Shown in pieces: positions 17,843 to 50,934 of a stretch of DNA of 64,000 nt; the first letter of the stretch is position 1, and every line of letters begins with the position of its first letter. A program made the position numbers and the translations under genes. The stretch is from Maribacter polysiphoniae (GTDB lineage: Bacteria; Bacteroidota; Bacteroidia; Flavobacteriales; Flavobacteriaceae), in the NCBI RefSeq assembly GCF_003148665.1, contig NZ_QGGQ01000011.1:1-64000 (forward strand), read 5' to 3'. A model generated the notes under the pieces. It did no database searches, was not told the DNA's origin, and saw nothing but the letters and a program-made list of their open reading frames with translations.

Positions 17843-18049
17843 CTAAGCCGCGCTCCCGCCAGCCTCTTTCTTAATCCCTAATTTCAGTAATATCTTCTCT
17901 AACAAACACCATTTGGTAAAAGCCGATTGGAACATATTGGCACCTATGAACATCGTAAACCACAGCCAATTGATATTTACGTACACGGCCATAATAACAC
18001 TCGCCATAATAAACACTCCTACTAAGGCCCTAAAATATGTATTCAACAT
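17843..18049 (-). CDS. DUF2892 (YgaP-like) membrane protein
   Basis: This 68-residue protein with two membrane helices carries the DUF2892 pattern: LNTYFRALVG at the start, then the second helix and FQSAFTKWCLLEKILLKLG with a conserved Cys. Such proteins often accompany rhodanese and other sulfur genes (the membrane part of YgaP). It is last in a minus-strand run behind the RND efflux genes, 22 bp after the PII-like gene. Confidence 0.8.
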   Translation of the reverse strand: MLNTYFRALVGVFIMASVIMAVYVNINWLWFTMFIGANMFQSAFTKWCLLEKILLKLGIKKEAGGSAA

Positions 18050-18071
18050 AAGATTTCTTTTTAATTGATTT

Positions 18072-18377
18072 TTAAATACTTCTTTCTACAGGAACAACAA
18101 TCGCCTTTATGGGATTATTGGTTTCCAAGCTCCCATTGAACTCCTTGATCAGTTCAAAAAGCGCATCTATCTTATCCTCACTGGTAAAAGAGAAAAACAA
18201 ACTGGACTCGACCCCTCCCTTAACGTTCGGGAACCAACTCGATTTCATCAATAAGGAAATAGGATTTTTATAACCATCAATATCAGAACCACTGAAATTC
18301 TCGATCTCGGCCTTTTTAAAAAGGTCCATGACCTGCTTCTCATACTGTTCAACAACAGTTACCATTAATAGCTTCAT
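18072..18377 (-). CDS. Small PII-like protein linked to RND efflux
   Basis: This 101-residue soluble protein has a beta-alpha-beta pattern (MKLLMVTVVEQYEKQVMDLF at the start, EDKIDALFELIKEFNGSLE near the end). It resembles PII-like/DUF3240-type proteins encoded beside RND pumps. It lacks the PII T-loop and nucleotide motifs, so no ligand can be named. It lies between the RND permease gene and a DUF2892 gene and is probably co-transcribed with the pump. Confidence 0.5.
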   Translation of the reverse strand: MKLLMVTVVEQYEKQVMDLFKKAEIENFSGSDIDGYKNPISLLMKSSWFPNVKGGVESSLFFSFTSEDKIDALFELIKEFNGSLETNNPIKAIVVPVERSI

Positions 18378-18528
18378 ACCTTTACATTTTAAATTAATTG
18401 TACTTCCACCATCCTTCTAAAAGATGGGATAAGAACGTATACCACAACTACGTTCCGGTATGGAGAATAGTGAAATCGGCCCTTATGGGCTAACCTTCAC
18501 TAATTGTCAATACCCGGCTCATCCATTA

Positions 18529-21500
18529 TTATTTATAATTTTTACGTTCGATCATATAGTACACCAAGGGCACAACCAAAAGCGTCAACACAGTAGACAC
18601 GATCGTTCCTCCCATAAGTGATATGGCCAATCCTTGAAAAATAGGATCGAATAAAATTACAAAGGCCCCGATAACCACAGTACCCGCAGTCAATAAAATG
18701 GGTACGGTCCGTACGGCACCAGCCTCGATAACCGCCTGTTTGATCGGTATCCCCTCGGCCAATCGCAGATTCACAAAGTCGATCAACAGGACGGAATTCC
18801 TCACCATAATACCCGCAAGGGCAATCATTCCGATAAAGGAGGTAGCCGTAAAGAAAGCCCCCAACAACCAGTGTCCCAATACGATACCTACCATGGATAA
18901 CGGTATGGCAACCATCATGACCACGGGTGCCTTAAAATTCTGGAACCAACCTACAATCAGAATATAAATGATGATAATGACCCCTAGGAACGCAATCCCC
19001 AAGTCTCTGAAAACTTCCAATGTAATTTGCCATTCACCATCCCATTTAACGGTATAATTGTCTTCAAAATCAGGTTGCTTTATATACAACTCATCCAGGG
19101 AATACCCTTCAGGAAGGTTTATTTGTTTCAGTTTATCGGTCATCCCTAAAATGGCGTATACGGGACTTTCCAAATCCCCGGCCATATCGGCCAGAACATA
19201 TACCACCCTTTTTTGGTTTTTGCGATAAATGCTTTTTGCCCTTGTCTTCTGTTCTATCGTGACCAAATCGCCTATGGTGACCATATGGCCTTGTTGTGAT
19301 TTGACCTTTAATTGTGCAATATCACCAATGGTCGACTTCTCTTTCTCATCCAAGGCCAAGACCAAACCTACCTGATGGGCAGCATCCTCGTCATAGAGAT
19401 TGGTCACGGATCTTTCGGACAACGCCATATTCATGGTATGGGCTATTTGTTGTGGTGCTACACCATACAACATAGCCTTTTCCTTATCGATTATAAATTC
19501 ATATTCGATTTGATCGGCCTCTACCATCCAATCCACATCGACAACATCTTCGGTATTGTTCAATATATTCTGGACTTGGTTGGCCACATCTATTTGTATA
19601 TCGTAATCCGGACCATAAATCTCACCCACAATGGTAGAAAGGACAGGAGGTCCTGGAGGTACTTCCACGATTTTCACATTGGCATTGAACCGCTTCCCTA
19701 TGCGTTGGATTTCGGGACGCAACAAACTGGCAATTTCATGACTCTGTTCGCTTCGCTCCCCCTTGTCGATAAGGTTCACTTGAATATCGGCCATATTACT
19801 TCCCCCACGCAGGTCATAGTGGCGTACGAGTCCATTAAAGGTTATTGGGGCCGATGTACCCACATACGTCTGATAATTCACCACTTCGCTGCGGGTAGCC
19901 AAATACTGTGCTATTTCCTTGGCCACTACTCCGGTACGCTCCAAGGTAGTGCCCTCGGGCATATCAATGACCACCTGAAACTCGTTCTTGTTATCAAAAG
20001 GCAACATTTTCACAGCAACCGATTTGGTAAAGAACAAACCAACGGAGGCAATCAACAGTAAGAACGTAATGCCTAAAAACAGCCACCTCTTCTTTTTATC
20101 CTCGATCAGTGGTTTTTCAAACTTCTCATACATACGATAGATAAAAGAATCCTCCATCGCTTTCTCCTCTTTCTCCCCGCTTCCCTTTTTTTCCTTTTCC
20201 CGAAGGAAGACAAACCCCAAATAGGGAGTTATCGTCAATGCCACAAAGAGTGACAACAACATCGCTATCGATGCACCAATGGGCATCGGACTCATATAGG
20301 GCCCCATTAAACCCGATACGAATGCCATGGGCAGTACGGATGCAATTACGGTGAATGTTGCTAAAATCGTCGGATTACCCACTTCATTGATCGCATATAA
20401 AGCCGCCTGTTTAAACGGCAAGCGTTTCATTTTAAAGTGACGGTGCATGTTTTCCGCAATAATGATGGAATCATCGACCACAATACCGGTGACGAATACC
20501 AAAGCGAAAAGCGTAATTCGGTTCAAGGTATAATCGAGCATGTAGTAGCTCAATAAAGTAAGGGCAAAAGTGATGGGGACCGATAAAAACACGACCAAGC
20601 CACCCCGCCAGCCCATGGCCAACATAACCACAAAGGTCACAGCGACAATGGCCCCAATAAGGTGCATTAAAAGTTCGGATACCTTATGGGAGGCTGTTTC
20701 CCCGTAGTTACGGGTTACCTCCACATGAACATCATCCGGAATCAAATCCTTTTTCAAATGCTCCACCTTATCCAATATGATATCGGATATCTTCATGGCA
20801 TCGGCTCCCTTACGTTTGGCAACGGAAATCGTTACTGCAGGATACTCGGATTTAAAATCGACCGCCTTTTCACTGGCTTGTCCAAAGCCCAACGCCACAT
20901 AATCCTTAGGAATCTCAGGTCCATCCTGAATACTTGCGATCTGCTTTAAGTAAATTGGCCTATTTTGTTGAACGCCAACCACTAAGTTCTCCACATCTTC
21001 GGCCGTTTCCAGGAATTTACCGGTGGTAACCGTGAACTCCGTGTCGTTTTTATCAAAGGAACCACCACCCAATTGCTGGTTATTGGCCTGGATCATTTGG
21101 GCCACGCCAAGAAAATCCAAACCACTTTCGGCCATCTTTTCCTTATCGAGTACGACCCTTAATTGCCTATTTCTGCCCCCGATTTTTTTAACCACCGACA
21201 CATCATTGATTTTTTCAATCTCATCGGTAAGCTCCTGTGCAATCAACTTAATGCGATAATCATCATAAGTATCGCTCCATAAGGTAAGCCCCAACATGGG
21301 CACATCATCAATGGCACGCGTTTTTACCAAGGGGAAAGTGACACCTTGGGGCATAATGTCCATATGCTTGTTGATCTCATTATAGAGCTTAACGAATGAC
21401 CGCTCTATATCCTCCCCTACATAGAATTGCACAATGACCATGCCCTGTTCTTTCATTGAAGTTGAGTACACATACTCGACTCCCTTGATGTTCGAAATCA

Positions 21501-21723
21501 GTTTTTCCAAGGGTTTCGTAACCCTGGATTCCACTTCTGTCGGACTTGCCCCTGGGTATCCCACAAAGATATCCGCCATAGGCACATCGATCTGGGGTTC
21601 CTCTTCCCTAGGTATTAAAAAGGAGCTGTAAACCCCAATGACCATAAACACGATCATCAGAAGTACTGTTAATTTAGATCCAATGAATAATTTGGCGATT
21701 TTGCCAGCTAATCCTTCCTTCAT
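18529..21723 (-). CDS. RND efflux permease (inner membrane)
   Basis: This 1064-residue RND transporter has twelve membrane helices in two repeats, each with a large periplasmic loop. Helix 4 carries the proton-relay pair in GIVVDDSIIIAEN, as in drug/HAE1-type pumps, not the single acidic residue of CusA. Start motifs (IPREEEPQIDVPMADIFV, YPGASPTEVESRV) are family standard. The adaptor and TolC genes precede it on the same strand, and the pump is headed by two Crp/Fnr-like sites. Its substrate is unknown; the setting suggests a toxic product of sulfur or nitrogen chemistry. Confidence 0.9.
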   Translation of the reverse strand: MKEGLAGKIAKLFIGSKLTVLLMIVFMVIGVYSSFLIPREEEPQIDVPMADIFVGYPGASPTEVESRVTKPLEKLISNIKGVEYVYSTSMKEQGMVIVQFYVGEDIERSFVKLYNEINKHMDIMPQGVTFPLVKTRAIDDVPMLGLTLWSDTYDDYRIKLIAQELTDEIEKINDVSVVKKIGGRNRQLRVVLDKEKMAESGLDFLGVAQMIQANNQQLGGGSFDKNDTEFTVTTGKFLETAEDVENLVVGVQQNRPIYLKQIASIQDGPEIPKDYVALGFGQASEKAVDFKSEYPAVTISVAKRKGADAMKISDIILDKVEHLKKDLIPDDVHVEVTRNYGETASHKVSELLMHLIGAIVAVTFVVMLAMGWRGGLVVFLSVPITFALTLLSYYMLDYTLNRITLFALVFVTGIVVDDSIIIAENMHRHFKMKRLPFKQAALYAINEVGNPTILATFTVIASVLPMAFVSGLMGPYMSPMPIGASIAMLLSLFVALTITPYLGFVFLREKEKKGSGEKEEKAMEDSFIYRMYEKFEKPLIEDKKKRWLFLGITFLLLIASVGLFFTKSVAVKMLPFDNKNEFQVVIDMPEGTTLERTGVVAKEIAQYLATRSEVVNYQTYVGTSAPITFNGLVRHYDLRGGSNMADIQVNLIDKGERSEQSHEIASLLRPEIQRIGKRFNANVKIVEVPPGPPVLSTIVGEIYGPDYDIQIDVANQVQNILNNTEDVVDVDWMVEADQIEYEFIIDKEKAMLYGVAPQQIAHTMNMALSERSVTNLYDEDAAHQVGLVLALDEKEKSTIGDIAQLKVKSQQGHMVTIGDLVTIEQKTRAKSIYRKNQKRVVYVLADMAGDLESPVYAILGMTDKLKQINLPEGYSLDELYIKQPDFEDNYTVKWDGEWQITLEVFRDLGIAFLGVIIIIYILIVGWFQNFKAPVVMMVAIPLSMVGIVLGHWLLGAFFTATSFIGMIALAGIMVRNSVLLIDFVNLRLAEGIPIKQAVIEAGAVRTVPILLTAGTVVIGAFVILFDPIFQGLAISLMGGTIVSTVLTLLVVPLVYYMIERKNYK

Positions 21724-21829
21724 TCTATTGATTATTTAATTTTTTGGGCGTTCGGGCGGGCTTTCACCAGTCGCTTTTTTTATACAAAAAAGAGCTCCAA
21801 CAATGGCTCAATCCCTAACGCAAAATTTA

Positions 21830-22906
21830 CTATTGGATACTGATTTTGGCTCCATTATACAATTTGCCTTCCGCCGATACGATATATTGCTCATCGGATG
21901 TCAAACCGGATAGTACCTCAACCTGGTCCCCCATGGTCCTACCCAATCGCAACCATCGCAACAAGGCCGTATTACTCTGGCTAACGGTATAAACCCCCGT
22001 TAGTTCCCCATTGTTGACGATCGCTTCTTTTGGGATCATAACCGATTGGGCATTCTTTTTCTGGGCGATAGGAAAACGTACCGTGGCATACATACCCGAT
22101 AAAATCCCAGCATCGGTCTTGTCTAAAACTACCTTGACCAAATATTGTCCCCCCGTGTTCTTGGACGATGTGCTTATTTCAACCACCTTGCCCTTAACCG
22201 TTTCATTCAAGGATTTTAATATCACATCCACCGTTGTATTGGCCTTGATCTCGAGTATTTCATTTTCCGGTACCATGGCCATTACTTGAAATTTTCCAGG
22301 TGATTCCACTTCCAACAAAGGCATACCAGGATTCGCCATATCCCCTTCCTTGATAAACTTATTAGTTACGATACCACTGAAAGGCGCTCGAATATTGGCA
22401 TATGAAAATTGGGCATTTACCTCATTCTTCATCTGTTTGGCTGCTTCCAATCGGGCTTTGGCCATATTATAATTGGCTGTTATGTCATCCAATTCCTTTT
22501 GGGAGGCACTATTTTCACTGAACAATGCCATAAACCGGTTGTAATCTTTCTCCGCATTGGTATATGCAGCCGTTGCTTCGGTAATACCTGCATTGACCTG
22601 GGCCAATTTTGCTGAAAGATCGGCATTACTGATACTGATCAACTGCTGGCCTTTTTGCACCTTATCGCCTACATTCACATATATCCTATCGACATAACCC
22701 ATCATTCGGGTACTCAAATTGGCGCTGTTTACAGCTTCGATCTTACCACTTGTTGTTAAGAAAGAATCCCCGCCTTCTTCGGATACCGAATTTACCGACA
22801 CCTTTATTATTGGGGTATTCTCCGCTATGTTTTTCTTTTTCCCATCCCCACAACTGGCAATGGAAAGTGCAAGCGTGATCAATCCTATGAAATACGTATT
22901 CCTCAT
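21830..22906 (-). CDS. RND periplasmic adaptor (membrane fusion protein)
   Basis: This 358-residue adaptor is anchored as a lipoprotein (LSIASCGD). It has the split lipoyl domain (GKIEAVNSANLSTRMMGYVD at the start, FSGIVTNKFIKEGDMANPGM after the helical hairpin), a beta-barrel and a membrane-proximal domain. It would connect the permease with the TolC channel encoded directly upstream (27 bp). Confidence 0.9.
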   Translation of the reverse strand: MRNTYFIGLITLALSIASCGDGKKKNIAENTPIIKVSVNSVSEEGGDSFLTTSGKIEAVNSANLSTRMMGYVDRIYVNVGDKVQKGQQLISISNADLSAKLAQVNAGITEATAAYTNAEKDYNRFMALFSENSASQKELDDITANYNMAKARLEAAKQMKNEVNAQFSYANIRAPFSGIVTNKFIKEGDMANPGMPLLEVESPGKFQVMAMVPENEILEIKANTTVDVILKSLNETVKGKVVEISTSSKNTGGQYLVKVVLDKTDAGILSGMYATVRFPIAQKKNAQSVMIPKEAIVNNGELTGVYTVSQSNTALLRWLRLGRTMGDQVEVLSGLTSDEQYIVSAEGKLYNGAKISIQ

Positions 22907-22933
22907 CTTGATGTTTATTTTTTTACTGTTGAA

Positions 22934-24238
22934 TTATTCCTTGGTTAAAAATTGTACATATGCCAGTGCATAGTTATGTTGAAAAATGGTGGCGTAATAC
23001 TCCAACCGCTTTTGTGCATATTGGGTTTCCGCCATCAATAAATCAGTGGTTTTCTCCAATCCTTGTTCAAATCTATTGGTTCGGATCCTTAACGATTCCC
23101 CAGACTGTGCCAAAGCAAGAGCCGTAAGCTCCAAGTTGTTTTTGGCATCTTGAAGCATACGTATGGCCCTATTCAGCTCTACCTGACTTTCCGCTTTATA
23201 TTGGTTGAGTTCCAATTTCGATTTTTCGAATTCGGCCCTACTTTTCTTTGCCTTACCAAAACGTTTTGAACCTGCGAAAATATCCCATTTCAATTCGGCC
23301 CCGAACAGATAGCCTTCCGCATCGGCCTGAAACACACCGTCATCATGCAACTCATACGTACCAAAAGCATTCAACCGTGGAAGAAAACTCATTTTATCGG
23401 ACCTGTACATTTGCTGGTAGGCCTCAGAGGCTGAGGACATGGCAAGAATATCCTTCCTGTTTTCCGGCAAAACATCAAAATCCACATCTTGGGTAAGAAC
23501 AGTCAATGAATCTGCAGGTTTCAAAATGATATAGCTTTGATCGTTCATCAAGACCGATAATTGGTTCGAGGCATTTTTAATATTGCTTAAGGCATATTGC
23601 AGCTGGTTATCGATCTCAGTAACCCGCACCTGAACGGCCAAAACATCCGATTTTTGTAAATACCCCTGTTTAAAGCTATTATCGGCCAACCTTTTATTCT
23701 CTAGAGCCGCTTCCTTTGCTTTTTCGAGTACTTCAACCGTTTTATAGGATAGTTGTAATTGCATATAGGCCTTATCGACCATCAATTGTATATAGTCTTG
23801 CTTGCGTTCTGCCTGCATTTGTGTGGCGTTCCATTTGGCTTTAGCCGCTTTTCGCTGGTAGAGTCCATCAAAATTCAACAAAGGTTGTTGTACTTCGATA
23901 CGCGTAGCAAAATCCTCTATTTGTTTGGGGTCGTTAAGCGATAGGGGGTCAAAATCAGCTTGGGTCAATATTTCCTGGTTCAACTTTGAACCAAAGGCCA
24001 TTAATGGATTTGTAGTGGCTATCCCTGTATGGGAAATACTGATATTGGGTAGCAACACAGCATTACTTTGCATATAGTCTCCCTTGGCCGCCAAAACCTC
24101 CTGTTCCGATATTTTGAGGGCATTATTCCCCTCAAGCACTTTAGTAAGCACTTCATCCTTGGTAATCAAGACTGTTTCTTGTGCCCGTATTCCCGTTAAA
24201 ACAATGAAAAATGCAAGTATTAAAAGTATTCTCCTCAT
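22934..24238 (-). CDS. TolC-family outer membrane channel
   Basis: This 434-residue protein has a signal peptide (MRRILLILAFFIVLTGIRAQ) and two TolC repeats. The long coiled helices (for example FDGLYQRKAAKAKWNATQMQ and LNRAIRMLQDAKNNLELTAL) are typical. I chose the ATG at 24238; a GTG just before it would add one residue. It is the first gene of the efflux operon, and its promoter region has two Crp/Fnr-like palindromes 22 bp apart. Confidence 0.88.
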   Translation of the reverse strand: MRRILLILAFFIVLTGIRAQETVLITKDEVLTKVLEGNNALKISEQEVLAAKGDYMQSNAVLLPNISISHTGIATTNPLMAFGSKLNQEILTQADFDPLSLNDPKQIEDFATRIEVQQPLLNFDGLYQRKAAKAKWNATQMQAERKQDYIQLMVDKAYMQLQLSYKTVEVLEKAKEAALENKRLADNSFKQGYLQKSDVLAVQVRVTEIDNQLQYALSNIKNASNQLSVLMNDQSYIILKPADSLTVLTQDVDFDVLPENRKDILAMSSASEAYQQMYRSDKMSFLPRLNAFGTYELHDDGVFQADAEGYLFGAELKWDIFAGSKRFGKAKKSRAEFEKSKLELNQYKAESQVELNRAIRMLQDAKNNLELTALALAQSGESLRIRTNRFEQGLEKTTDLLMAETQYAQKRLEYYATIFQHNYALAYVQFLTKE

Positions 24239-24285
24239 CACTCAATTAATTTGTGGTAAAATTAGAAGGTGTCACATAACCTAAC

Positions 24286-24323
24286 AGTAACTTATGTTAC
24301 CTTGGGTTGTAACATTTGTTACC
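24286..24323. promoter_or_regulatory. Two GTAAC-N4-GTTAC palindromes before the RND operon
   Basis: AGTAACTTATGTTACC at 24286-24301 and TGTAACATTTGTTACC at 24308-24323 are spaced 22 bp centre to centre (two helical turns). A TAATTTTA box on the minus strand (24257-24264) lies 33 bp from the near site. The pattern matches binding of a Crp/Fnr-type dimer at an activating position. Confidence 0.7.
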
Positions 24324-24383: not shown

Positions 24384-25037
24384 CTAAAGTTTAACTCCAT
24401 AAGATAAATCACCTGCATCCCCAAGTCCGGGAACTATGTACCCCTTCTTGGTCAATTCATCATCAATGGCCGCAATCCATAAATGCGTGTCTTTAGGAAA
24501 GACCTTTTCTACATAGTCTACACCCTGTTTAGACCCAATTACCGAAATAATATGGATTTGTTTGGGTTGTCCATGGCTTTTCAGAGCCTTTAATACATTC
24601 TCCAAGGTTCTACCCGTAGCCAACATGGGATCGGTCAACACCAAGGTTTTGTTTTCCAGGCTGGGTGCTGCAAAATATTTTACAATGACCTCAAAATCAT
24701 CCCCTCCATTGGGGTGGTGCCTATAGGCCGAAATAAAGGCGTTTTCTGCACGGTCTAAATAATTCAACAACCCATTATGCAATGGGATTCCTGCCCTTAA
24801 TACCGAACAGAGTACAAGATCATCCATGGGCAATGCGATATCCTTGGTCCCTAGTGGTGTCTGTACGGTCTTGTTTTCATACCCCAAGGTCTTACTCATT
24901 TCATAACACAGAATCTCTCCGATGCGTTCGATATTCCGTCGAAATCGCATAGGGTCTTTCTGAATCTCGATATCACGGATTTCGGCAATAAAACGATTCA
25001 ACACTGAAAATCCGGACTCAAAATCATGTAATATCAT
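24384..25037 (-). CDS. upp: Uracil phosphoribosyltransferase
   Basis: This is a complete 217-residue salvage enzyme (uracil plus PRPP to UMP). The PRPP loop LVLTDPMLATGRT and the uracil-binding end YIVPGLGDAGDLSYG are intact, as is SVLRAGIPLHNG. It is a housekeeping gene that happens to lie inside the stress island and has no visible link to it. Confidence 0.93.
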   Translation of the reverse strand: MILHDFESGFSVLNRFIAEIRDIEIQKDPMRFRRNIERIGEILCYEMSKTLGYENKTVQTPLGTKDIALPMDDLVLCSVLRAGIPLHNGLLNYLDRAENAFISAYRHHPNGGDDFEVIVKYFAAPSLENKTLVLTDPMLATGRTLENVLKALKSHGQPKQIHIISVIGSKQGVDYVEKVFPKDTHLWIAAIDDELTKKGYIVPGLGDAGDLSYGVKL

Positions 25038-26430: not shown

Positions 26431-27888
26431 TTATTCTGGGATCAACCACCAAAAAGGTCTCATTTTGGCCTTGTACAAAAAGGCATGGTGAAGGGCCAAC
26501 TTTAACCAATGACCCGCCAAACCTATTTCCCCAAAGGTTTTACCCAACTTTCGACCATACGTGTCCGGATATTTGTTAAAATCGGGAACGATAGGGAAAG
26601 TGGTAATACTGATGCCACTACCTTTTGTTATTCCGTATCCAGAGGAAGCGATACATGCAGCCCCCATATTACCCATTGAACCCTTATGGTGCAACGATGG
26701 TTTTTTCTTTTTAATCGTATCTATAATATTATCCGCGACCAACTTGGCAGTAATACCGGAAGGCATACCTGTACGCGGTGGTGCCGGGGATATTGGGGTT
26801 CCGTTTTTACTGACCCTTGGTTTTGAAATCGCATGTGGAGGTGCGAAAGCGATTCCAGGTGCAAAAATATTCGCGTAAGAGGGATTTTGATAGGTTTCTG
26901 GCCAATCCTGTACAGACCATTCCTCATAAGGTTTGGGTGTATAGTCAGCATCCACGATCATAAACCCTCTAAACAGTTTTTCCGTGATATCTTGATCATT
27001 CTTATCGTATGCCTTAAATCCGTGTCCAGAAAAAGCAGGGATCAACATGGCAAAATCATAGGTTTCCGTATGAAATTCGCCATCCAATGTTTCATAATGG
27101 GCTACACCCTCCTCAATTTTATTGACGCCAGCCCCAATGATCCATTTAATTCCCCGGTCCTCAAAGACCATCTCGACCAACTCACTCGATTTCATAATAT
27201 TGCTACCATAACTGAGCAACATGCCATCCATTCCAAAATCACCCAATTGGGGTTCATTGGCTATCCACGTAAGCTCTGCCATGTCCCTTACCCCATGCCT
27301 ATTCAATTCTTGTTCCACGTTCAAAATATATTCAAAAGCAGCGCCTTGACAGGTAGATTTGGCATGGCCGGTCCCAATTAATATTTTGGCTTTCTTACCT
27401 TGTTTCATCTGCTGGATCAATTGATCCAAAGCATGCCATGCTTCGGTTGCATGGGTATAGGTACAAACAGAATATGCTTTATGGGTGGCTGGCTTTAGAC
27501 CTTCGGTCATTTCAAAAGCCAATTTTGGACCCGTAGCATTGATAAGATAATCGTAAGTGACTTTTTCGGTAGTGCCCTTGGCCTCCCCGGCAACATACTC
27601 GGCCTTAACAAAGGGTTTGTCTATTTCTGTGTCCCCTTCTGGATGAAAGGTAACGACTTTGGCCTGTTTAAATTCAATGCCTTTCTTTTTATATAGGGGC
27701 TCCAAAGGAAAAATAATATCCTTGGGTTCCATACGTCCGATACCTACCCATATATTGGAAGGTACCCATTGGTAATTGCTATTGGGGGAAACTACCGTAA
27801 CCGTATGTTCCTTGGATAATTTTCTGCGTAAATGGGTCGCAGCGACGTGCCCGGAGATGCCAGCTCCCAAAACAACAATTCTAGACAT
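26431..27888 (-). CDS. sqr: Sulfide:quinone oxidoreductase
   Basis: This 485-residue flavoprotein oxidises sulfide at the membrane and passes electrons to quinone. The FAD motif is VLGAGISGHVAATHLRR at the N-terminus. Three cysteines fit SQR chemistry: C142 (YSVCTYTH), C180 (KSTCQGAAFEY) and C412 (GAACIASSGYG). The C-terminus is hydrophobic and basic (WLKLALHHAFLYKAKMRPFW), fitting monotopic membrane binding. A weaker Crp/Fnr-like site stands 118 bp upstream. Persulfide made here would feed the dioxygenase at 43014. Confidence 0.9.
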   Translation of the reverse strand: MSRIVVLGAGISGHVAATHLRRKLSKEHTVTVVSPNSNYQWVPSNIWVGIGRMEPKDIIFPLEPLYKKKGIEFKQAKVVTFHPEGDTEIDKPFVKAEYVAGEAKGTTEKVTYDYLINATGPKLAFEMTEGLKPATHKAYSVCTYTHATEAWHALDQLIQQMKQGKKAKILIGTGHAKSTCQGAAFEYILNVEQELNRHGVRDMAELTWIANEPQLGDFGMDGMLLSYGSNIMKSSELVEMVFEDRGIKWIIGAGVNKIEEGVAHYETLDGEFHTETYDFAMLIPAFSGHGFKAYDKNDQDITEKLFRGFMIVDADYTPKPYEEWSVQDWPETYQNPSYANIFAPGIAFAPPHAISKPRVSKNGTPISPAPPRTGMPSGITAKLVADNIIDTIKKKKPSLHHKGSMGNMGAACIASSGYGITKGSGISITTFPIVPDFNKYPDTYGRKLGKTFGEIGLAGHWLKLALHHAFLYKAKMRPFWWLIPE

Positions 27889-28088: not shown

Positions 28089-29165
28089 TTAATGTTCCCC
28101 GTAACCCACATCATCCATTTTACCTTTAAAAACCCGGTATTGGACGACCATATAGAAAATAACCAACACCAAGGCTATAAAGAACCAATTCATACCAACA
28201 GAAAGTCCATATTCATGGGCAGCCACATTGTACAGTGTCAATGATGGGTTAACCGTATTGGTCGAGGGCAGTAGTTTGGGAAATATCGAAGCCACGGTAG
28301 AGGCCAAACCTCCCAACAAAAACAAGGAGGAAAACAAAAATCCCATGCCATGCTTTTTAAAAGTCCGTACTTTGAACAAACCGAACAACCCAACAAACGT
28401 TATTATCGGGAATAACCACATTAAGGGATATTGTACGAAATTCTGAAAAGGATCGGGTTCAATAATATGCCAAATCAACAAGGAGACCACAACCAAGGCG
28501 AGCAATACAAAATTCAGGATAAACACCACCCGCTTTAATCTGTCGTTTATACTGGAGTTTGTTTTGAAGATAATCCAATTGGCACCGTGAATCGTCAAAG
28601 CGACCACACTAACCACACCCAAGAACAGTGTAAACCAATCAATAATGCCCAGGTGTTCTGCTTGTGGACTAAAAGTGGGGTTCCACAAGGGTAAAAAGAA
28701 ATAATGGGCCTCTTGGGTAGACACCCCATTTTCAACCATACCCAAATTAACACCCCTGACAACATTGCCCAGTGCCACACCGAAGAAAAGTGCCAATAAC
28801 AAACTAGCCACCCCAAACGCCTTATCCCATATTACTTCCCAAATCCTGTTATGCACTTGCCCTCTTAATTCCAATCCTATTGCCCTAAAAATAAGCAGCC
28901 ATAAAATCATGATCAAAGGCAGATAAAATCCACTGAAAGAAGAGGCATACAAGGTTGGGAATGCGAAAAACAGAACCCCTCCTGCGGCAATCAGCCAGAC
29001 TTCATTAGCATCCCAAAAGGGTCCTATAGCACTGGTAATGGCTTTTTTATCCTTCTCGGTTTTCGCGAAAAACAGATGGATGATTCCCGCCCCAAAATCA
29101 TAACCATCCAAAATAACATAGACGGCCAACATTATCACTAAAACGATATACCAAAATAATTCCAT
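28089..29165 (-). CDS. cydB: Cytochrome bd quinol oxidase subunit II
   Basis: This 358-residue membrane protein has about nine helices, with the family opening LVIMLAVYVILDGYDFGAG. It is the partner of CydA in the high-affinity terminal oxidase, which tolerates sulfide and nitric oxide. I chose the ATG at 29165, two bases after the cydA stop; a TTG at 29171 would overlap cydA. Its position next to SQR suggests electrons from sulfide can reach oxygen without a sulfide-sensitive haem-copper oxidase. Confidence 0.93.
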   Translation of the reverse strand: MELFWYIVLVIMLAVYVILDGYDFGAGIIHLFFAKTEKDKKAITSAIGPFWDANEVWLIAAGGVLFFAFPTLYASSFSGFYLPLIMILWLLIFRAIGLELRGQVHNRIWEVIWDKAFGVASLLLALFFGVALGNVVRGVNLGMVENGVSTQEAHYFFLPLWNPTFSPQAEHLGIIDWFTLFLGVVSVVALTIHGANWIIFKTNSSINDRLKRVVFILNFVLLALVVVSLLIWHIIEPDPFQNFVQYPLMWLFPIITFVGLFGLFKVRTFKKHGMGFLFSSLFLLGGLASTVASIFPKLLPSTNTVNPSLTLYNVAAHEYGLSVGMNWFFIALVLVIFYMVVQYRVFKGKMDDVGYGEH

Positions 29166-29167
29166 AT

Positions 29168-30585: not shown

Positions 30586-30601
30586 CGTAACCATTGTTAC
30601 A
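30586..30601. promoter_or_regulatory. Crp/Fnr-like palindrome before cydAB
   Basis: The sequence is CGTAACCATTGTTACA. A minus-strand GAAATTTG box (30557-30564), one mismatch from TAnnTTTG, is 33 bp from its centre. Confidence 0.7.
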
Positions 30602-38752: not shown

Positions 38753-39232
38753 ATGGATGAACATACGAAATTCAAGCAACGGGCGAAGGCCATATACCAA
38801 ATGCTTTTGGGCATTTTTGGTTTATTCGCGGTAGCCGCCTTTACTATATTATTTCTTATGCTGAATCCTGATTTGTTAAAAAAATCAGGACCCCAGGTTG
38901 AAGAAATGGAATACACAACCGTTCCTAAGGAAGATGATTTTGATAAGATAGAAAATGGGATACACGTCCGCACCGGCTTGGTCGATGCTGAAGGACTGAT
39001 GACCGTAGTCAATAATTGCACCAATTGCCATTCGGCAAAATTAGTGACCCAGAACCGAATGAACGAGGAACGGTGGATCACCACCATTCGTTGGATGCAA
39101 GAGACACAGAATTTGTGGGACTTAGGACCCAATGAGAAAATTATCGTCAATTACCTGGTCTCCAATTATCCTCCTGAAAAAAAAGGGCGACGGGAAAATT
39201 TAAAAGATATTGAATGGTATGATCTTAATTAA
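38753..39232 (+). CDS. Membrane-anchored cytochrome c, partner of sulfite dehydrogenase
   Basis: This 159-residue protein has one N-terminal membrane helix (about 17-40) and one haem site (NNCTNCHSAKL) with a possible distal Met (NRM or RWM). It plays the part of SorB, accepting electrons from the molybdenum subunit and passing them into the respiratory chain. It starts with no gap after the sorA-like stop. Confidence 0.83.
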   Translation: MDEHTKFKQRAKAIYQMLLGIFGLFAVAAFTILFLMLNPDLLKKSGPQVEEMEYTTVPKEDDFDKIENGIHVRTGLVDAEGLMTVVNNCTNCHSAKLVTQNRMNEERWITTIRWMQETQNLWDLGPNEKIIVNYLVSNYPPEKKGRRENLKDIEWYDLN

Positions 39233-40204: not shown

Positions 40205-40236
40205 TCGCGATACTGGCTACGATTCAATATCAAGTA

Positions 40237-41037
40237 TCAATTACCCGTTACATAAAGCTGTCGTCCATTGTGGGGCTGCTCGTTCCTGTAATTATTAATG
40301 GGCATCAATTTCTTTAGAAGGTCTACCTGTTCCAATGAAACCGTAATGGGTTCTTTTAAGATATACCAATTCACCCCTTCTGTACAGGGAGGGGTTGTTA
40401 AAGAGCCCGTATAAAAGAAATAATCCTTATTACTGGGCAAATTGTCGTTCATATTGAAGGGCAGATCCACTTCTTTTTTCTCACCAGCCTTAAGTGGCAA
40501 GAAACTTTCCAAGAAATCAAAAGGAATACTACTTACCCCTTCTTTGGCCATAACCGCAATAACGGTATACTGTCCGGAATCATTAATATGCACCAAATGC
40601 ATTTCCAAGGGATAACGCACCCCATCGATCGTATGTTCCGACGGTTCATGAAAGTGTACTTGTTTTAAATCATATCGCAAACCATTGACCATGATATTAT
40701 CCCCAGATTCAAAATTATATTGAATGCTATGCCCATTGTTGGTCACATCGTGTATTTTGGTGTTTTCGGCGTAATGAAGGGCTATAGGCTTAAGACTATT
40801 GTTTTCTTCGTATTTGACAATATTTATTGGGGATTGAAATTTACCATTGCAATCCGATTCCGCCTCAATCTCAGCCCAATGTTCCGGACCTGTCTCCCCC
40901 GCATAGCTCCAATGCTTTGATGATGACCCGTGTTCAACTTCCCTAGTTTCTGCGCCAATGTGGGTGTTTTTCGTCCCACTTTCTTTACAGGCCCCTAAGA
41001 CCAATAAGCCTATGAAGGCATACATTGTATATTTCAT
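40237..41037 (-). CDS. Alpha-type carbonic anhydrase (lipoprotein)
   Basis: This 266-residue enzyme starts at the ATG at 41037 (MKYTMYAFIGLLVLGACKES gives a lipobox; an upstream in-frame ATG at 41088 would bury the signal). The zinc histidines are in QVHFHEPSEH and EMHLVH. The family opening KHWSYAGETGPEHWAEIEAE and the end TTPPCTEGVNWYI are intact. It interconverts CO2 and bicarbonate in the periplasm. Why it lies in this island is not clear. Confidence 0.9.
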   Translation of the reverse strand: MKYTMYAFIGLLVLGACKESGTKNTHIGAETREVEHGSSSKHWSYAGETGPEHWAEIEAESDCNGKFQSPINIVKYEENNSLKPIALHYAENTKIHDVTNNGHSIQYNFESGDNIMVNGLRYDLKQVHFHEPSEHTIDGVRYPLEMHLVHINDSGQYTVIAVMAKEGVSSIPFDFLESFLPLKAGEKKEVDLPFNMNDNLPSNKDYFFYTGSLTTPPCTEGVNWYILKEPITVSLEQVDLLKKLMPINNYRNEQPHNGRQLYVTGN

Positions 41038-41158
41038 TTGACAAATAGTATTTATGAAGGTTTTCGTAATGGGGACTGCATAAAACATTTAAATCCTTTG
41101 AACGTAAAACCACGTCAAAAGTAGATTTATTATCCAATTCCCAAAAGCGATAAGGATA

Positions 41159-42235
41159 CTATTTATCAAAAACAATACTCCAAATACCACGTACTTCATC
41201 AACATCATAGCCTAATGCCAAATCGGAAGGATATAGTTTCCTTAAAGTGGTCAAGGTTTCAAAAGCGACGTTTTCGTTGGGTATTCCATGGCATTGCAGA
41301 CACATCGTATTGGTAGTTATGGGATAATAGAAATGTATTTGATCATTGACCTCTTCTGTCATCGGGCTGATTTCCATTCCATTTTTCGCCATCTGCTTAA
41401 AGACATTGATATAATCAAGTTCTTTGGCATTTGCCTGGTTATCGGGATTTCTGGGTTTGTCCGAGACTCTTTTGATTTTAGCCTTGTGGACAATGGCCAT
41501 ACTATCGGTTAGCTTTATCGCTTTAAGGTTACAAAACGTAACAGCGCCAACAGTCCCCTTTTGTTGTATTGCGGTTATGAGGTTTTTTCCTAATTGCTGT
41601 TTGGTAGATAAGGCATATTTTAATCCCAAGGCACTAAAATCGGTATCCGTAGTATTCTGACCCATGCCCATTCGCATCTGCCTACCATTACCCATACCTT
41701 GGCCTCTTCCCATACCTTGACCATTACCCATACCTTGACCATTACCCATACCTTGGCCTCTTCCCATACCTTGGCCTTGGCCGTTACCATGGTTCATTTG
41801 ATAATGTTCTTCGAACCATTCCGGCTGATCTATCTCATTATCGTATAGGTAATCCGCTATTTGTTTTATTTCCTCCTCAGGGTAAGGAAGATAGGGCATT
41901 ACCCCAAAACGCTGTACGGCACCCGGCATTTTCGATTTTTCACGTGAGGGTTTCCTTGACCATTCCACAAAATCATTGATGAATTCATTTTTGGTGGTAC
42001 CCCCCATTTGATACCGCATTTTAACCGCTGCCATGGGTGGGGCAAGTCGATTAGCCTCTGGAGTGGTTGCATCGTGACATATATAACATTTGGTCTCTAC
42101 GATTTTCTTTCCCGGGTGTTCCCCATCCACCAAGTTGTTTTCTGAAAGTCCATCCCCTATAGGAGTCGTCTTTCCCTTGGTGTCTTTGCAACTTGCCAAT
42201 ACGATAATTACCGCTATACAATATATAATCCTCAT
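41159..42235 (-). CDS. Cytochrome c fused to a DUF3365 haem domain (lipoprotein)
   Basis: This 358-residue lipoprotein (IVLASCKD) has an N-terminal cytochrome c (haem at CYICHDA, about residues 50-60) and a C-terminal DUF3365/Tll0287-like domain with its own haem site (TMCLQCHG). They are joined by a Gly/Met/Gln-rich linker (GQGMGN/GQGMGR repeats). DUF3365 domains sense redox or small gases in other proteins. The gene overlaps the HMA gene by 4 bp, so it belongs to the persulfide dioxygenase operon. Confidence 0.78.
   Translation of the reverse strand: MRIIYCIAVIIVLASCKDTKGKTTPIGDGLSENNLVDGEHPGKKIVETKCYICHDATTPEANRLAPPMAAVKMRYQMGGTTKNEFINDFVEWSRKPSREKSKMPGAVQRFGVMPYLPYPEEEIKQIADYLYDNEIDQPEWFEEHYQMNHGNGQGQGMGRGQGMGNGQGMGNGQGMGRGQGMGNGRQMRMGMGQNTTDTDFSALGLKYALSTKQQLGKNLITAIQQKGTVGAVTFCNLKAIKLTDSMAIVHKAKIKRVSDKPRNPDNQANAKELDYINVFKQMAKNGMEISPMTEEVNDQIHFYYPITTNTMCLQCHGIPNENVAFETLTTLRKLYPSDLALGYDVDEVRGIWSIVFDK
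41684..41773. repeat. Five 18-bp tandem repeats in the DUF3365 protein linker
   Basis: Units alternate between ACCATTACCCATACCTTG and GCCTCTTCCCATACCTTG. They encode six-residue units GQGMGN or GQGMGR. This is a coding repeat, probably variable in number between strains, and not a CRISPR. Confidence 0.9.
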
Positions 42236-42504
42236 TCTTTGGACATTTTACCCGTTGCACAACTCACAAACGACTTTGCTTTGGTCGCAAGGGTATTTTT
42301 GCTATCGACAGAAGGATATCCCAATTCCTTAAGTTTATCCTTAACCCGAAGGGTGTCCTCCGCAGCCACATAGGTAAATGTCACTGAAGAGGATTCCGTG
42401 ATGACATCAACTTCTGAAATATGCTCTATTTCAGATAATTTATTGGTGATTGTACGGGCACATCCGTCACATTTTAAATTCTGAACTATTATTGTTGCTT
42501 TCAT
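42232..42504 (-). CDS. HMA heavy-metal-associated protein (copper-chaperone-like)
   Basis: This 90-residue protein has a ferredoxin-like HMA domain with the metal motif LKCDGCARTI and a short extension ending in SFVSCATGKMSKE. It probably binds copper or another soft metal. It is the third gene of the persulfide dioxygenase operon (63 bp after the rhodanese, 4 bp overlap with the next gene). Confidence 0.82.
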   Translation of the reverse strand: MKATIIVQNLKCDGCARTITNKLSEIEHISEVDVITESSSVTFTYVAAEDTLRVKDKLKELGYPSVDSKNTLATKAKSFVSCATGKMSKE

Positions 42505-42567: not shown

Positions 42568-42909
42568 TTACCATTGCATATATCCTCCTTGAAGGTCATA
42601 CACTTTCTCGAAACCCATATCCAATACTTTACGAGCCGCCTTTCTACTTCTACTACCTGATCTACAGTACAAATATACCGGTTTGTCCTTATCCAACTTT
42701 TCAAAAGACGACTTAAAATCACTGCCTTGGAAAAAATCGATATTAATGGCCTTACCTATATGTCCGGTCCTGTATTCCCCGGCAGTGCGCACATCTACCA
42801 ATTGTACCTTTTTATTTCGAATGGCTGCCTTAAAGGCATTTTTATCCAGTACTTCAAACTTATCGGGATCAAGGGCGCCTCCGCCAAAAAGTAAACTTAA
42901 AAATGACAT
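42568..42909 (-). CDS. Rhodanese-domain sulfurtransferase
   Basis: This 113-residue single rhodanese has an active-site loop CRSGSRSRKAA in which the cysteine forms the persulfide. It has no signal peptide, so it acts in the cytoplasm. It would move sulfane sulfur between persulfide carriers. It stands between the dioxygenase fusion (104 bp upstream) and the HMA gene. Confidence 0.87.
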   Translation of the reverse strand: MSFLSLLFGGGALDPDKFEVLDKNAFKAAIRNKKVQLVDVRTAGEYRTGHIGKAINIDFFQGSDFKSSFEKLDKDKPVYLYCRSGSRSRKAARKVLDMGFEKVYDLQGGYMQW

Positions 42910-43013: not shown

Positions 43014-44429
43014 CTATAGCATGGTGGTCGGACATACATAATCGGTTCGATCCACTGCTGTATTTGAGATTCCATCGAACCCTTCTACCACATCGGTAAA
43101 ATTGTCCCACCCCCTTTGTTTTAATATAGAGGCTGCAATCATACTCCGATATCCTCCCGCACAATAAATAATGAAGGGAGTATCTTTAGGAAACTCGGCC
43201 AAATGCCCGTTGATTTCATTCAATGGGATATTTTGGGCGCCAACAACATGTTCGGAATCATATTCACTTTTTTTACGAATATCGATAACCAGTGGTTTTT
43301 TGGCAGTATACATTTCCGCAAATTCCTGTGACGACATACGATTGATCGTCCCAAACTCCTTCTTGGCGATCTTCCAACTATCGAAACCTCCCTTAAGAAA
43401 ACCTATCGCATGATCATAACCAACCCTTGATAATCGGGTAATGGCCTCTTTTTCCTTATCGGGATAGGTAATAAGCAAGATTTCCTGTTTAATATCAGGA
43501 ACCATTTCACCTACCCATTGGGCAAAATTACCGTTCAATCCGATATTGATGCTATTCGGAACATGCCCTTTTGCAAAATCCTCAGGATCCCTAGTGTCTA
43601 ACATCAAAGCGCCTGTTTCATTGGCAGCGGCCTCAAAAGCTTCTGGGGTCAAGGCTTGTGTCCCCCTTTCCATCACGGTATCAAGACTTTCATACCCCTT
43701 TATATTCATCATTACATTTTTGGGGAAGTAGGCTGGTGGCGAGGTCAGGCCTGTAAGCAGTTCCTTGATGAACTCCTCTTTGGTCATATCTGCCCGTAAT
43801 GCATAATTGACTTTTTTCTGATGCCCTAAGGTATCGGTAGTTTCCTTACTCATCATTTTACCACAGGCAGAACCTGCACCGTGATTGGGATATACGATAA
43901 GGTCATCGCCCAAAGGCATAATTTTATTTCTTAGGGAATCGTACAGGTATCCTGCCAGTTTTTCCTCAGTAAGCTCTGACACGACGTGTTGCGCCAAATC
44001 GGGCCTACCAACATCACCAATGAACAACGTATCCCCTGTAATCAGGCCGTGCTCTTTCCCTTTTTCATCAATAAGCAAATACGTTGTACTCTCCATGGTA
44101 TGTCCAGGAGTATGTAAAACCTTTACTTTATACCCCCCTATTTCAAAGACCTGATTATCCTCAGCGACCAAAGCATCATAACCTGGCTTGGCCGTTGGAC
44201 CGAACACTATTTGTGCCCCCGTTTTTTTCCTTAAATCCAAATGGCCACTTACAAAATCGGCATGAAAGTGGGTCTCGAAGACATATTTAATACGGGCATT
44301 GTCCTTTTTTGCCCGGTTTATATAAGGTTGTACCTCACGAAGAGGGTCGAAGATGGCTGCCTCACCATTACTTTCCAAATAGTAGGCTGCATGGGCTAAG
44401 CAACCCGTATAAATCTGCTCTATTTTCAT
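43014..44429 (-). CDS. Persulfide dioxygenase (ETHE1-like) fused to two rhodanese domains
   Basis: This 471-residue enzyme, counted from the ATG at 44429 (MKIEQIYTGCLAHAAYYL), has a metallo-beta-lactamase domain with THFHADFVSGH and HTPGHT metal motifs. Two rhodanese domains follow, about 260-360 and about 365-470. The first has no catalytic cysteine (ILLITYPDKEKEA); the second is intact (YCAGGYRSMI). The enzyme should oxidise persulfide to sulfite, which the sulfite dehydrogenase then oxidises. A perfect-core Crp/Fnr-like site lies 56 bp before the start. Confidence 0.88.
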   Translation of the reverse strand: MKIEQIYTGCLAHAAYYLESNGEAAIFDPLREVQPYINRAKKDNARIKYVFETHFHADFVSGHLDLRKKTGAQIVFGPTAKPGYDALVAEDNQVFEIGGYKVKVLHTPGHTMESTTYLLIDEKGKEHGLITGDTLFIGDVGRPDLAQHVVSELTEEKLAGYLYDSLRNKIMPLGDDLIVYPNHGAGSACGKMMSKETTDTLGHQKKVNYALRADMTKEEFIKELLTGLTSPPAYFPKNVMMNIKGYESLDTVMERGTQALTPEAFEAAANETGALMLDTRDPEDFAKGHVPNSINIGLNGNFAQWVGEMVPDIKQEILLITYPDKEKEAITRLSRVGYDHAIGFLKGGFDSWKIAKKEFGTINRMSSQEFAEMYTAKKPLVIDIRKKSEYDSEHVVGAQNIPLNEINGHLAEFPKDTPFIIYCAGGYRSMIAASILKQRGWDNFTDVVEGFDGISNTAVDRTDYVCPTTML

Positions 44430-44597: not shown

Positions 44598-45230
44598 TTA
44601 CACCTTCAGTAAACGTATCTGGTTTCTATGGAGTTTGATTTCACCTAGGTTTTCGAGCTTTTTAAGCAGTCTGGAAATAACCACCCTTGAAGTATGTAAC
44701 TCATAGGCAATTTGCTGATGGGTGGTACTGATTTCATTGTCATTGGTTACCCTCGCCTTATCCCTTAAATACTTTAGAAGACGGTCATCCATCCTCAAGA
44801 AGGCTATACTGTCGATTGTCTCCAACATCTCATTCAGCCTGTTGTGGTAACTTAACAGGACAAAATTTCGCCAGCTTGTGTATTTTGCCAACCATTCCTC
44901 CATCTTTTGGATTGGAATCATAATCAATTTGGCATTGGTTTCGGCTATGGCCCTAACTTCACTTTTCGTGTGACCCATGCAACAATTCAATGTCATGGCA
45001 CAAGTATCGCCATGTTCCAGAAAATACAATAATAATTCATCGCCATCCCCATCTTCCCGAAGCACTTTTATTACACCGGATATCAACAAGGGCATGGATT
45101 TTACGTAATCCCCAATCTCCATCAGCTTATGACCTTCATGAATTTCCCGATATGTCCCTGTTTGGTTTATTTCATTGATTAGTTCTTCCTCAAAAAGATG
45201 TCCGTAATTTGCTTGTAGTTCTTTGATCAT
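44598..45230 (-). CDS. Crp/Fnr-family transcriptional regulator
   Basis: This 210-residue regulator starts at the ATG at 45230 (MIKELQANYGHLF). It has a cyclic-nucleotide-binding-type beta-barrel (about 20-120) and a winged helix (TTHQQIAYELHTSRVVISRL). Cysteines are clustered in TCAMTLNCCMGHTKS and could sense sulfur species. It is the only Crp/Fnr gene in the window and lies beside the persulfide dioxygenase, so it is the best candidate for the protein that binds GTAAC-N4-GTTAC. No such site is seen before its own gene. Confidence 0.87.
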   Translation of the reverse strand: MIKELQANYGHLFEEELINEINQTGTYREIHEGHKLMEIGDYVKSMPLLISGVIKVLREDGDGDELLLYFLEHGDTCAMTLNCCMGHTKSEVRAIAETNAKLIMIPIQKMEEWLAKYTSWRNFVLLSYHNRLNEMLETIDSIAFLRMDDRLLKYLRDKARVTNDNEISTTHQQIAYELHTSRVVISRLLKKLENLGEIKLHRNQIRLLKV

Positions 45231-45401
45231 ATGGCTAATGTCGCGATTATAGTTGAAATATGGGTTACACCAAAAATAACCCTCAAATTTCAAATTGAAA
45301 ATAATTCTTGGGAATACTTTTGAAATTGCCTTAATTTTAGTTTAAGTTTAATCTAAATGTTTGAAGGGCAAAGCTTTTCGAAGATATACATAATACCTAA
45401 A

Positions 45402-48449: not shown

Positions 48450-48470
48450 CCCATAAAAATTGGACATAAT

Positions 48471-49973: not shown

Positions 49974-50188
49974 GGTGTAAATTTATAAACTATATGTAAA
50001 AATAGCCTTAAATAATCCTTTGGTATAAAAATTAAAGGTCACTAATTCCATTTTAATAAGCATTAAAACATTTCTGTTTCCATATGAATGGTTTTTTACC
50101 ATAATCCTAAAAAAAGGGTCTACCAAGCATCACAAATATCAAAATTACACCTAAAATATTGATATACTGATAATTAAACCATACGCTA

Positions 50189-50204
50189 TGTAACAAAAGT
50201 TACA
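50189..50204. promoter_or_regulatory. Crp/Fnr-like palindrome before an unknown membrane protein
   Basis: TGTAACAAAAGTTACA has both half-sites perfect. A TAAATTGA box at 50226-50233 lies 33 bp from its centre, pointing to the gene at 50254. Confidence 0.75.
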
Positions 50205-50253
50205 CAAAATCAAGGGTGATTCCCATAAATTGAAAAAAACAAATCAAAAAATT

Positions 50254-50934
50254 ATGAAAAAAGATTTCGAAACTAAGGTTATCGGTTGGGCGTTTATCGT
50301 ATCGGCCATATTATTGTGGGGAGGGTGGTTTTTTTCGCCCCACCATTTGGGAGAGTATATTATCGCCTCTGATTTTGAGGAAATAAACCAAAATTTATGG
50401 ACATGGATTTGGCTCTATCGGGTTCATATCTTTGGATGGGTCATAATGGGGATTGCCATGTTCGCGTTAACGGCAATAGCCACGAAGAAACCATATCGCG
50501 TATTGATTTATCCCGGAGCCGGAATGATCATTGTCGGCACCTTCACTTTAGCCATTGCTGCCGCCTTTTACTATACATTCGGGGCATGGGGTATAGGAAA
50601 CACTGCAGGGAAATCACCAGAGGAAACCCAGCAGATTATGGATGGCTTACTTTTTACTAACCACTATGTAACCTGTTTTGTAAGGTTTGGCCGCGTATTT
50701 TCAGGGGTAGGCCTTATGATTTTGGGTGCTGCTTTTGTAAAATGGAACATTGTGAACAAAGGTTTGGGCTGGCTTACCATTATCATGGGGTTTGCCGCTA
50801 TGGCTATTATCATGGGAATTCCCGATAACTTTGAAATATACAAGCCTATGTTTCATGTTAAAGCTTTATGGCTTGTTTTAATGGGGGCAACCTTATTACT
50901 CAAGGGAATCAACCTGCCTGAAGAAGAGGACTAG
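50254..50934 (+). CDS. Unrecognised six-helix membrane protein in the island regulon
   Basis: This 226-residue protein starts at the ATG at 50254 (a TTG at 50230 would extend into the leader). About six hydrophobic segments are seen (near 9-28, 54-75, 83-105, 137-160, 168-188, 198-216). Conserved-looking histidines lie in FSPHHLGEY, LYRVHIFGW, FTNHYVTCF and MFHVKALW, which could bind haem or metal. I do not recognise the family. Control by the same palindrome as SQR, cydAB and sulfite dehydrogenase suggests a respiratory or stress role. Confidence 0.6.
   Translation: MKKDFETKVIGWAFIVSAILLWGGWFFSPHHLGEYIIASDFEEINQNLWTWIWLYRVHIFGWVIMGIAMFALTAIATKKPYRVLIYPGAGMIIVGTFTLAIAAAFYYTFGAWGIGNTAGKSPEETQQIMDGLLFTNHYVTCFVRFGRVFSGVGLMILGAAFVKWNIVNKGLGWLTIIMGFAAMAIIMGIPDNFEIYKPMFHVKALWLVLMGATLLLKGINLPEEED

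Follow-up and report, generated by a model that had tools for sequence, protein, structure and literature searches.

The window analysed here covers the initial 64 kb of contig C11 in the genome of Maribacter polysiphoniae (5.13 Mb, 99.96% complete). Positions 17843-50934 of this window hold a block of genes that is probably a sulfide detoxification and oxidation island, the core promoters of which would be controlled by a Crp/Fnr-family protein (44598-45230) activated by reactive sulfur. The original prediction had named in this block a sulfide:quinone reductase (SQR), an ETHE1-rhodanese fusion (hereafter PDO, for persulfide dioxygenase), a free rhodanese, a SorAB-like sulfite dehydrogenase, cytochrome bd, Ric/DUF438, an RND pump, a copper receptor, an alpha carbonic anhydrase, and a Crp/Fnr gene. 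Gene identification relied on Pfam, NCBIfam, and PDB searches, by which all these genes were located between the two positions, several of them below curated cut-offs. The genes for the FadL-type porin, the fatty-acid-hydroxylase family protein, the HMA protein, the cytochrome c/Tll0287 fusion, UPRT, and the DUF4386-like protein, and two aminotransferase genes, are additions to that list.

Genes of the block

The genes of the proposed pathway, its putative regulator, and the operons in which they lie are as follows:

18072..18377, minus strand: 101-aa protein ending the RND operon, PII-like fold (low-confidence model)
18529..24241, minus strand: OEP-MFP-RND efflux operon (domain searches)
26431..27888, minus strand: SQR (FAD fold, redox cysteines, alignment to solved SQRs)
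28089..30499, minus strand: cydBA, cytochrome bd quinol oxidase
35458..36771, minus strand: FadL/TodX-type outer membrane protein (porin)
37532..38752, plus strand: SorA-like sulfite dehydrogenase (SorA model 224 bits, cut-off 600)
38753..39232, plus strand: SorB-like cytochrome (24 bits, cut-off 93; one CxxCH haem motif)
39326..40204, plus strand: fatty-acid-hydroxylase family (FAH) membrane protein, here downstream of SorAB
40237..41088, minus strand: alpha carbonic anhydrase, last in the PDO operon, lacking its own site
41159..42235, minus strand: cytochrome c/Tll0287-like fusion with a Met-rich linker
42232..42504, minus strand: small HMA-domain protein
42568..42909, minus strand: single-domain rhodanese (CRSGSRS in the sequence)
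43014..44426, minus strand: PDO, an ETHE1-type MBL persulfide dioxygenase fused to two rhodanese domains
44598..45230, minus strand: Crp/Fnr-family regulator, 211 aa (Pfam cNMP_binding and HTH_Crp_2)
50230..50934, plus strand: DUF4386-like membrane protein (Pfam 25 bits, cut-off 27.6)

The enzyme assignments depend on conserved domains and residues. The SQR candidate scores only 66 bits against the NCBIfam SQR_III model (cut-off 525), but the cysteines in SVCTYTHA, STCQGAAFEY, and GAACIAS align with those of solved SQRs (PDB search, E 3e-37), the last aligned pair falling in a weak second match; its fold and redox cysteines are thus those expected of an SQR. The PDO combines PF00753 with two PF00581 domains, contains THFHADFVSGH and CAGGYRS, and matches the MBL-rhodanese protein 3tp9 (E 1.5e-70, PDB search), features that characterize it as a predicted ETHE1-type persulfide dioxygenase fused to rhodanese. 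By eye, the active-site Cys is kept only in its second rhodanese domain. A plasmid search returned 604 records with something PDO-like, the best being 65% identical. The SorA-like protein has Oxidored_molyb and dimerisation domains, and the Cys of its LECGGNGRSE motif aligns with LQCAGNRRSE of sulfite oxidase; both it and its SorB-like partner stay under the NCBIfam equivalog cut-offs. For the 101-aa protein of the RND operon, the structural model (mean pLDDT 65.4) gave PII-like matches (best E 9.1e-4), and a PII-like identity is taken as a lead only.

The Crp/Fnr-family regulator and its predicted operator

The protein at 44598-45230 matches PF00027 and PF13545 above their cut-offs, and its PDB profile matches are to Crp/Fnr proteins (best 3dv8, E 1.3e-17), as expected for a member of the Crp/Fnr superfamily, in which it can be placed. 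Its sole cysteines, C77, C83, and C84, are invariant in the first eight orthologs aligned. Among the orthologs at the best 80 of 266 loci found (1.49 Mb in total), the resulting TCxxxxxCC motif occurs in 79, and 72 have exactly three cysteines; the motif is also found in 17 of 20 further, more distant orthologs, all 20 of which keep the first Cys. The named orthologs with 92-99% protein identity are from Maribacter species.

Two familiar types of regulator were considered and rejected. In E. coli CRP, E72 and R82 contact cAMP; the aligned positions are Met and Lys in the window protein, which reaches 50 bits against the NCBIfam CRP model (cut-off 266) and is, therefore, not regarded as a cAMP-responsive CRP. 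FNR, a 4Fe-4S protein, has four cluster cysteines, three of them near the N-terminus, whereas only the cysteines at 77, 83, and 84 are available here. Sensing of reactive sulfur (persulfide) by this protein is a guess from its targets and cysteines.

The predicted operator is a 16-bp palindrome, TGTAACnnnnGTTACA, detected ahead of Crp orthologs in other species. GTAAC-N4-GTTAC occurs in 11 of 82 Crp upstream regions (81 from the 80 loci, plus that of the window; shuffle maximum 6), and TGTAAC-N4-GTTACA in five (shuffle maximum 2). A matrix was trained on 12 sites upstream of these foreign orthologs, none from the window, with strong sites defined by a score of at least 14 bits. It finds seven strong sites in the window, against 0.2 expected from ten Markov shuffles. 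All seven are intergenic, in a block of which intergenic DNA makes up 12%, and nowhere else in the 64 kb is 14 bits reached, two sites outside the block scoring 12.5 and 11.3. These seven sites and two weaker candidates are listed below, each named after the gene or operon that it precedes:

24286..24301: operator, RND proximal, 17.2 bits, TAnnTTT box at +29
24308..24323: operator, RND distal, 21.3 bits
28006..28021: weak SQR operator, scoring 11.0 bits and conserved in relatives
30586..30601: cydAB operator, 18.8 bits
37018..37033: FadL operator, 21.3 bits, 254 bp from the gene
37463..37478: SorAB operator, a perfect palindrome scoring 22.2 bits
44485..44500: PDO operator, 17.8 bits, with a TAnnTTT box at +29
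45254..45269: doubtful Crp site, a half-palindrome scoring 10.2 bits
50189..50204: DUF4386 operator, a perfect palindrome scoring 22.2 bits

The carbonic anhydrase, FAH, and cytochrome/HMA/rhodanese genes could follow only via read-through from the PDO or SorAB promoters.

The exact core of the operator has 13 copies in the genome, seven of which fall in the block (binomial 1.4e-13, assuming uniform placement). An eighth is located 60 bp upstream of the genome's second PDO gene and has a correctly placed -7 box. Far from the island, a perfect operator on contig C14 (L146:3042-7368), without a correctly placed -7 box, has a multihaem cytochrome on one side and a PhsA-like molybdopterin enzyme (464 bits, cut-off 694) on the other. 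Two further cores are near genes that, by eye, look like Dps (C3) and PPDK (C13), and those inside open reading frames (ORFs) on C1 and at C14:72105 were taken as chance. It is the location of the exact core that constitutes evidence, not its genome-wide abundance: a reversed-pattern control gives 34 matches against 13, and it outnumbers the pattern in most relatives as well. As the reversed pattern is another palindrome, its count is not read as the chance level.

Operator sites and gene order in related genomes

All 80 Crp loci hold at least one strong site. The total is 275 (265 of them not deep in an ORF), compared with seven after one Markov shuffle of the sequence and 1-15 when 40 column-permuted palindromic matrices were used. 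The 12 training sites, all upstream of Crp, come from loci that are also among the 80 scored; removal of the 15 sites at Crp starts, the source of the matrix, leaves 260 sites, and every locus still has one.

The sites precede particular genes. A single site can serve two divergent genes, and genes inside an operon would be expected to have none. Per gene, the tallies are TSUP 45/50, PDO 48/60, a second SQR type 18/23, SorA 8/9, OEP 5/5, FadL 4/4, DUF4386 4/4, FAH 14/24, peroxiredoxin (Prx) 9/17, Crp itself 15/80, and cydA 2/6. No preceding site was found in these loci for TonB (0/4), carbonic anhydrase (0/5), or the aminotransferase fusion (0/5). By presence alone, and as lower bounds (some loci end at contig edges), the 80 loci contain PDO in 60, rhodanese in 57, TSUP in 50, the cytochrome in 40, HMA in 36, FAH in 24, the second SQR type in 23, SorA in nine, SulP in seven, cydA in six, and OEP in five. 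In relatives, operators were further noted before genes for a SoxA/TsdA-type dihaem cytochrome and for DsrE-like, DUF983, and Sulf_transp proteins, and before a gene resembling HemN by eye (loci L095:18677-20423, L083:9597-10001, L056:16023-16580, and L090:8053-9414).

Promoter geometry was assessed on the 193 of the 275 sites for which the downstream direction is unambiguous and a start lies 10-150 bp away. The Bacteroidota -7 box, TAnnTTTG, begins 29 bp from the centre of the operator in 95 of these sites (mean 0.16 at other offsets), and the shorter TAnnTTT does so in 158 (mean 0.90). With this spacing, the operator would sit where class II activators bind, and such a geometry appears typical of the clade's Crp loci.

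Orthologs of individual target genes were also followed, each set including the gene of the genome under study. Leaving aside one contig-edge match (G004), 16 of 20 OEP orthologs have an upstream site of at least 14 bits, five of the 16 being on other contigs than Crp. Among the exceptions, G036 (12.9 bits) and G025 (8.4 bits) retain the -7 box, G026 is truncated by the end of its contig, and G053 has neither a site nor more than weak Crp matches. An upstream site of at least 11 bits is present for nine of 11 SQR orthologs; for SorA, 11 of 17 reach at least 14 bits, and two more score 11-13.

The PDO site co-occurs with the regulator. Of 51 genomes with a PDO match, 48 were compared (the own genome and two with only distant homologs were omitted), each represented by its best PDO. 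A site of at least 10 bits precedes this gene in 26 of the 33 genomes that have a close Crp ortholog (E 1e-70 or better), against one of the 15 that do not (Fisher 2.9e-6, kinship ignored). The single Crp-less genome with a site is only 68% complete. At 14 bits or more, the counts are 19 of 33 and one of 15. These figures bear on the idea that the palindrome is bound by another Crp/Fnr-type regulator and that the island Crp is merely co-located with its targets. There are seven HTH_Crp_2 matches in the genome, and the window crp promoter carries only a half site, as this idea would allow. Nevertheless, the genome has one Crp of the window family, its recognition helix is unique among the seven matches, a site lies upstream of the island Crp in 15 of the 80 related loci, and PDO sites follow the presence of this Crp across genomes; binding by another regulator is, consequently, judged improbable. 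In G017, G020, G030, and G032, the PDO site reads TGTGA(C)...GTCACA; it is nearer to the classical Crp half-site, and the recognition helix of the regulator is unchanged. Covariation of the helix with TGTAAC/TGTGAC offered no variation to compare, the helix being nearly constant.

The original prediction named conservation of gene order in other flavobacteria as a check; the order is conserved in several Maribacter genomes, other genera keeping only parts. The order Crp-PDO-rhodanese-HMA-cytochrome(-carbonic anhydrase)-FAH-SorBA is kept in four of the nine relatives fetched for their window-type PDO (G005, G008, G007, and G011), and others keep parts of it. OEP, SQR, cydA, and SorA occur with Crp on one contig within ~20 kb in G010, ~22 kb in G006, and ~37 kb in G009. 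In Zhouia amylolytica (L102), the gene set that comes next to Crp is the RND operon, including the small PII-like partner (59% identical to the 101-aa protein of the window); after it lies a gene similar to one that has a Sulf_transp domain.

If unrelated operons had come together by chance, with no shared control, this would account for the lack of strong sites at Ric/DUF438, the TonB receptor, UPRT, and the aminotransferase fusion, and for the partial conservation outside Maribacter. Such a chance neighbourhood is hardly credible in view of the seven strong intergenic sites, where 0.2 were expected, the order kept in several Maribacter genomes, and the sites retained where targets and Crp are on different contigs. 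Because the Crp-PDO-rhodanese-HMA-cytochrome-FAH-SorBA set recurs in other Maribacter and its parts recur family-wide, the clustering of the block is not attributed to chance.

The block contains other genes, for which no strong upstream site was found in the window:

24384..25037, minus strand: uracil phosphoribosyltransferase (UPRT)
30823..31797, minus strand: PAS/hemerythrin (DUF438-like) protein
31797..32507, minus strand: Ric-like protein (Ric model 141 bits, cut-off 205)
33106..35403, plus strand: TonB receptor (copper-receptor model TIGR01778, 241 bits, cut-off 472)

UPRT recurs near Crp in nine of the 80 loci, with an upstream operator in five of the nine; the window copy has none. Downstream of SQR, 25408-25866 (minus strand) encodes a 152-aa secreted-looking protein with a weak match to the magnetosome protein MamS (25 bits, cut-off 200). 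Adjoining Crp, 45357-48449 (plus strand) encodes a 1030-aa fusion of an APH-type kinase, an M23 peptidase, and a class III aminotransferase, which has no strong upstream site in the window and occurs in three relatives, G005 matching only by a short piece. The block also holds two aminotransferase genes. The linker of the cytochrome c/Tll0287 fusion is Met/Gly-rich, with GQGMGRG repeats, and the gene adjoins that of the HMA protein; both features hint at copper.

Proposed regulation, its limits, and its significance

In the proposed scheme, reactive sulfur (persulfide or polysulfide) would modify the TCxxxxxCC cysteines and bring Crp into an activating form, which would then act via the palindrome at the RND operon, cydAB, FadL, SorAB, the PDO operon, and DUF4386, and weakly at SQR. 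SQR may pass sulfide electrons to quinone and on to cytochrome bd, while PDO and the rhodaneses would convert persulfide to sulfite in the cytoplasm. Through an exporter encoded outside the block, sulfite would reach the periplasm, where SorAB would oxidize it to sulfate, with electrons going to cytochrome c. The RND pump and the FadL porin may move a probably sulfur-related compound. The original prediction had offered a sulfide-tolerant oxidase as the electron acceptor. As cytochrome bd is a quinol oxidase and the SorB-like partner has a CxxCH haem, this can apply to the electrons of SQR and not to those of SorAB.

Several results weigh against this scheme or restrict it. In the window, TAnnTTT is at +29 only at the PDO and proximal RND sites, two of the seven strong ones; the SorAB, cydAB, FadL, and DUF4386 sites lack it, and the idea that all window promoters share a strict class II layout was rejected. 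The FadL and cydA sites lie 254 bp and ~94 bp from their start codons, respectively. Ric/DUF438, the TonB receptor, and UPRT were rejected as regulon members in their own genome, with best upstream scores of 4.7-5.8 bits, and p125 likewise has no upstream site above 5.8 bits. The window Crp promoter has a mere half-palindrome, and Crp was not retained as its own clear target, the site in many relatives preceding the next gene. A TSUP sulfite exporter was rejected as a member in the own genome, where four TSUP loci with 1.5 kb flanks contain nothing above 9.1 bits. Across genomes, four of 17 SorA orthologs have no upstream site, the best PDO lacks one in seven of the 33 genomes carrying Crp, and the CC pair is missing in three of the 20 more distant Crp orthologs. 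Only seven of 14 cydA orthologs have an upstream site of at least 12.5 bits, and cydA membership would, therefore, be limited to some lineages. The genome comparisons, moreover, ignore the relatedness of the genomes, and the exact core is not over-abundant genome-wide. The guess of one regulator was largely right, but its extension to all parts is not supported: predicted operators mark RND, cydAB, FadL, SorAB, the PDO operon, and DUF4386, with weaker sites at SQR and Crp, and are missing at Ric/DUF438, the p125/TonB receptor, and UPRT; in addition, the SorAB electrons would bypass cytochrome bd.

The nature of the signal is a separate matter. Crp/Fnr proteins often sense O2, NO, or redox state, and the island Crp could be the regulator while responding to oxygen, nitric oxide, or general redox, the sulfide genes belonging to a wider low-oxygen response. 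The TCxxxxxCC cysteines are no proof of persulfide chemistry, and cydAB, Ric, and, in relatives, HemN and peroxiredoxin are near it or under its control. However, sites most often precede PDO, TSUP, SQR-type, SorA, and sulfur-transport genes, the window shows none at Ric, and with just three cysteines in 72 of 80 orthologs there are none to spare for an FNR-type cluster. A signal of this kind is, accordingly, considered rather unlikely, and activation by reactive sulfur is preferred. A broader proposal, put forward tentatively and rated somewhat short of probable, is that an undescribed Flavobacteriales clade of TCxxxxxCC Crp/Fnr proteins may act as reactive-sulfur activators at TGTAACnnnnGTTACA class II sites, with a dispersed regulon of SQR, PDO, sulfur transporters, SorAB, and a sulfur-exporting RND pump with its PII-like partner.

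The enzyme steps belong to known families, the SQR-PDO-sulfite dehydrogenase route of heterotrophic bacteria using the same ones as the island; the new element is the operator with its Crp-family regulator. The reactive-sulfur regulators named in the part of a review that was covered are CstR, SqrR/BigR, PigS, and FisR (PMC9774590). According to the same part, FisR of Cupriavidus pinatubonensis, a Fis-family sigma-54 activator of sulfide-oxidation genes, has three conserved reactive-sulfur-sensing cysteines (PMC9774590). The island regulator would be similar as an activator of sulfide-oxidizing genes, but it differs in family and promoter type, with a Crp/Fnr fold and a site placed in class II-like fashion ahead of a Bacteroidota -7 box. 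SqrR/BigR (ArsR family) and CstR (CsoR family) share cysteine-based control of sulfide detoxification genes, but are described there as repressors, and their folds are unrelated (PMC9774590). In Acinetobacter baumannii, a Crp-like protein is persulfidated on Cys in sulfide-exposed cells, with unknown effect; it is a cAMP-type CRP, 50% identical to that of E. coli, and the portion of the study consulted reports no sulfide regulon (PMC7315123). In Bohai Sea sediment, NaHS raised pdo transcripts in 20 phyla, Bacteroidota included (PMC12345210). No description of a Crp/Fnr regulator of sulfide oxidation in Bacteroidota, nor of the regulator, operator, and gene set of Flavobacteriaceae sulfide oxidation, was found in titles and abstract openings of the full-text literature, which leaves most subscription papers uncovered.

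A Crp/Fnr-type regulator would differ from the ArsR, CsoR, or Fis types to which the reactive-sulfur regulators in the covered part of the review belong (PMC9774590). The predicted regulation would also tie an RND pump, a FadL-type porin, and DUF4386-like and FAH-family proteins to sulfur metabolism, a role unsuggested by their family names. A defined operator with a list of targets would provide a direct, testable handle on how Flavobacteriaceae may switch on sulfide oxidation.

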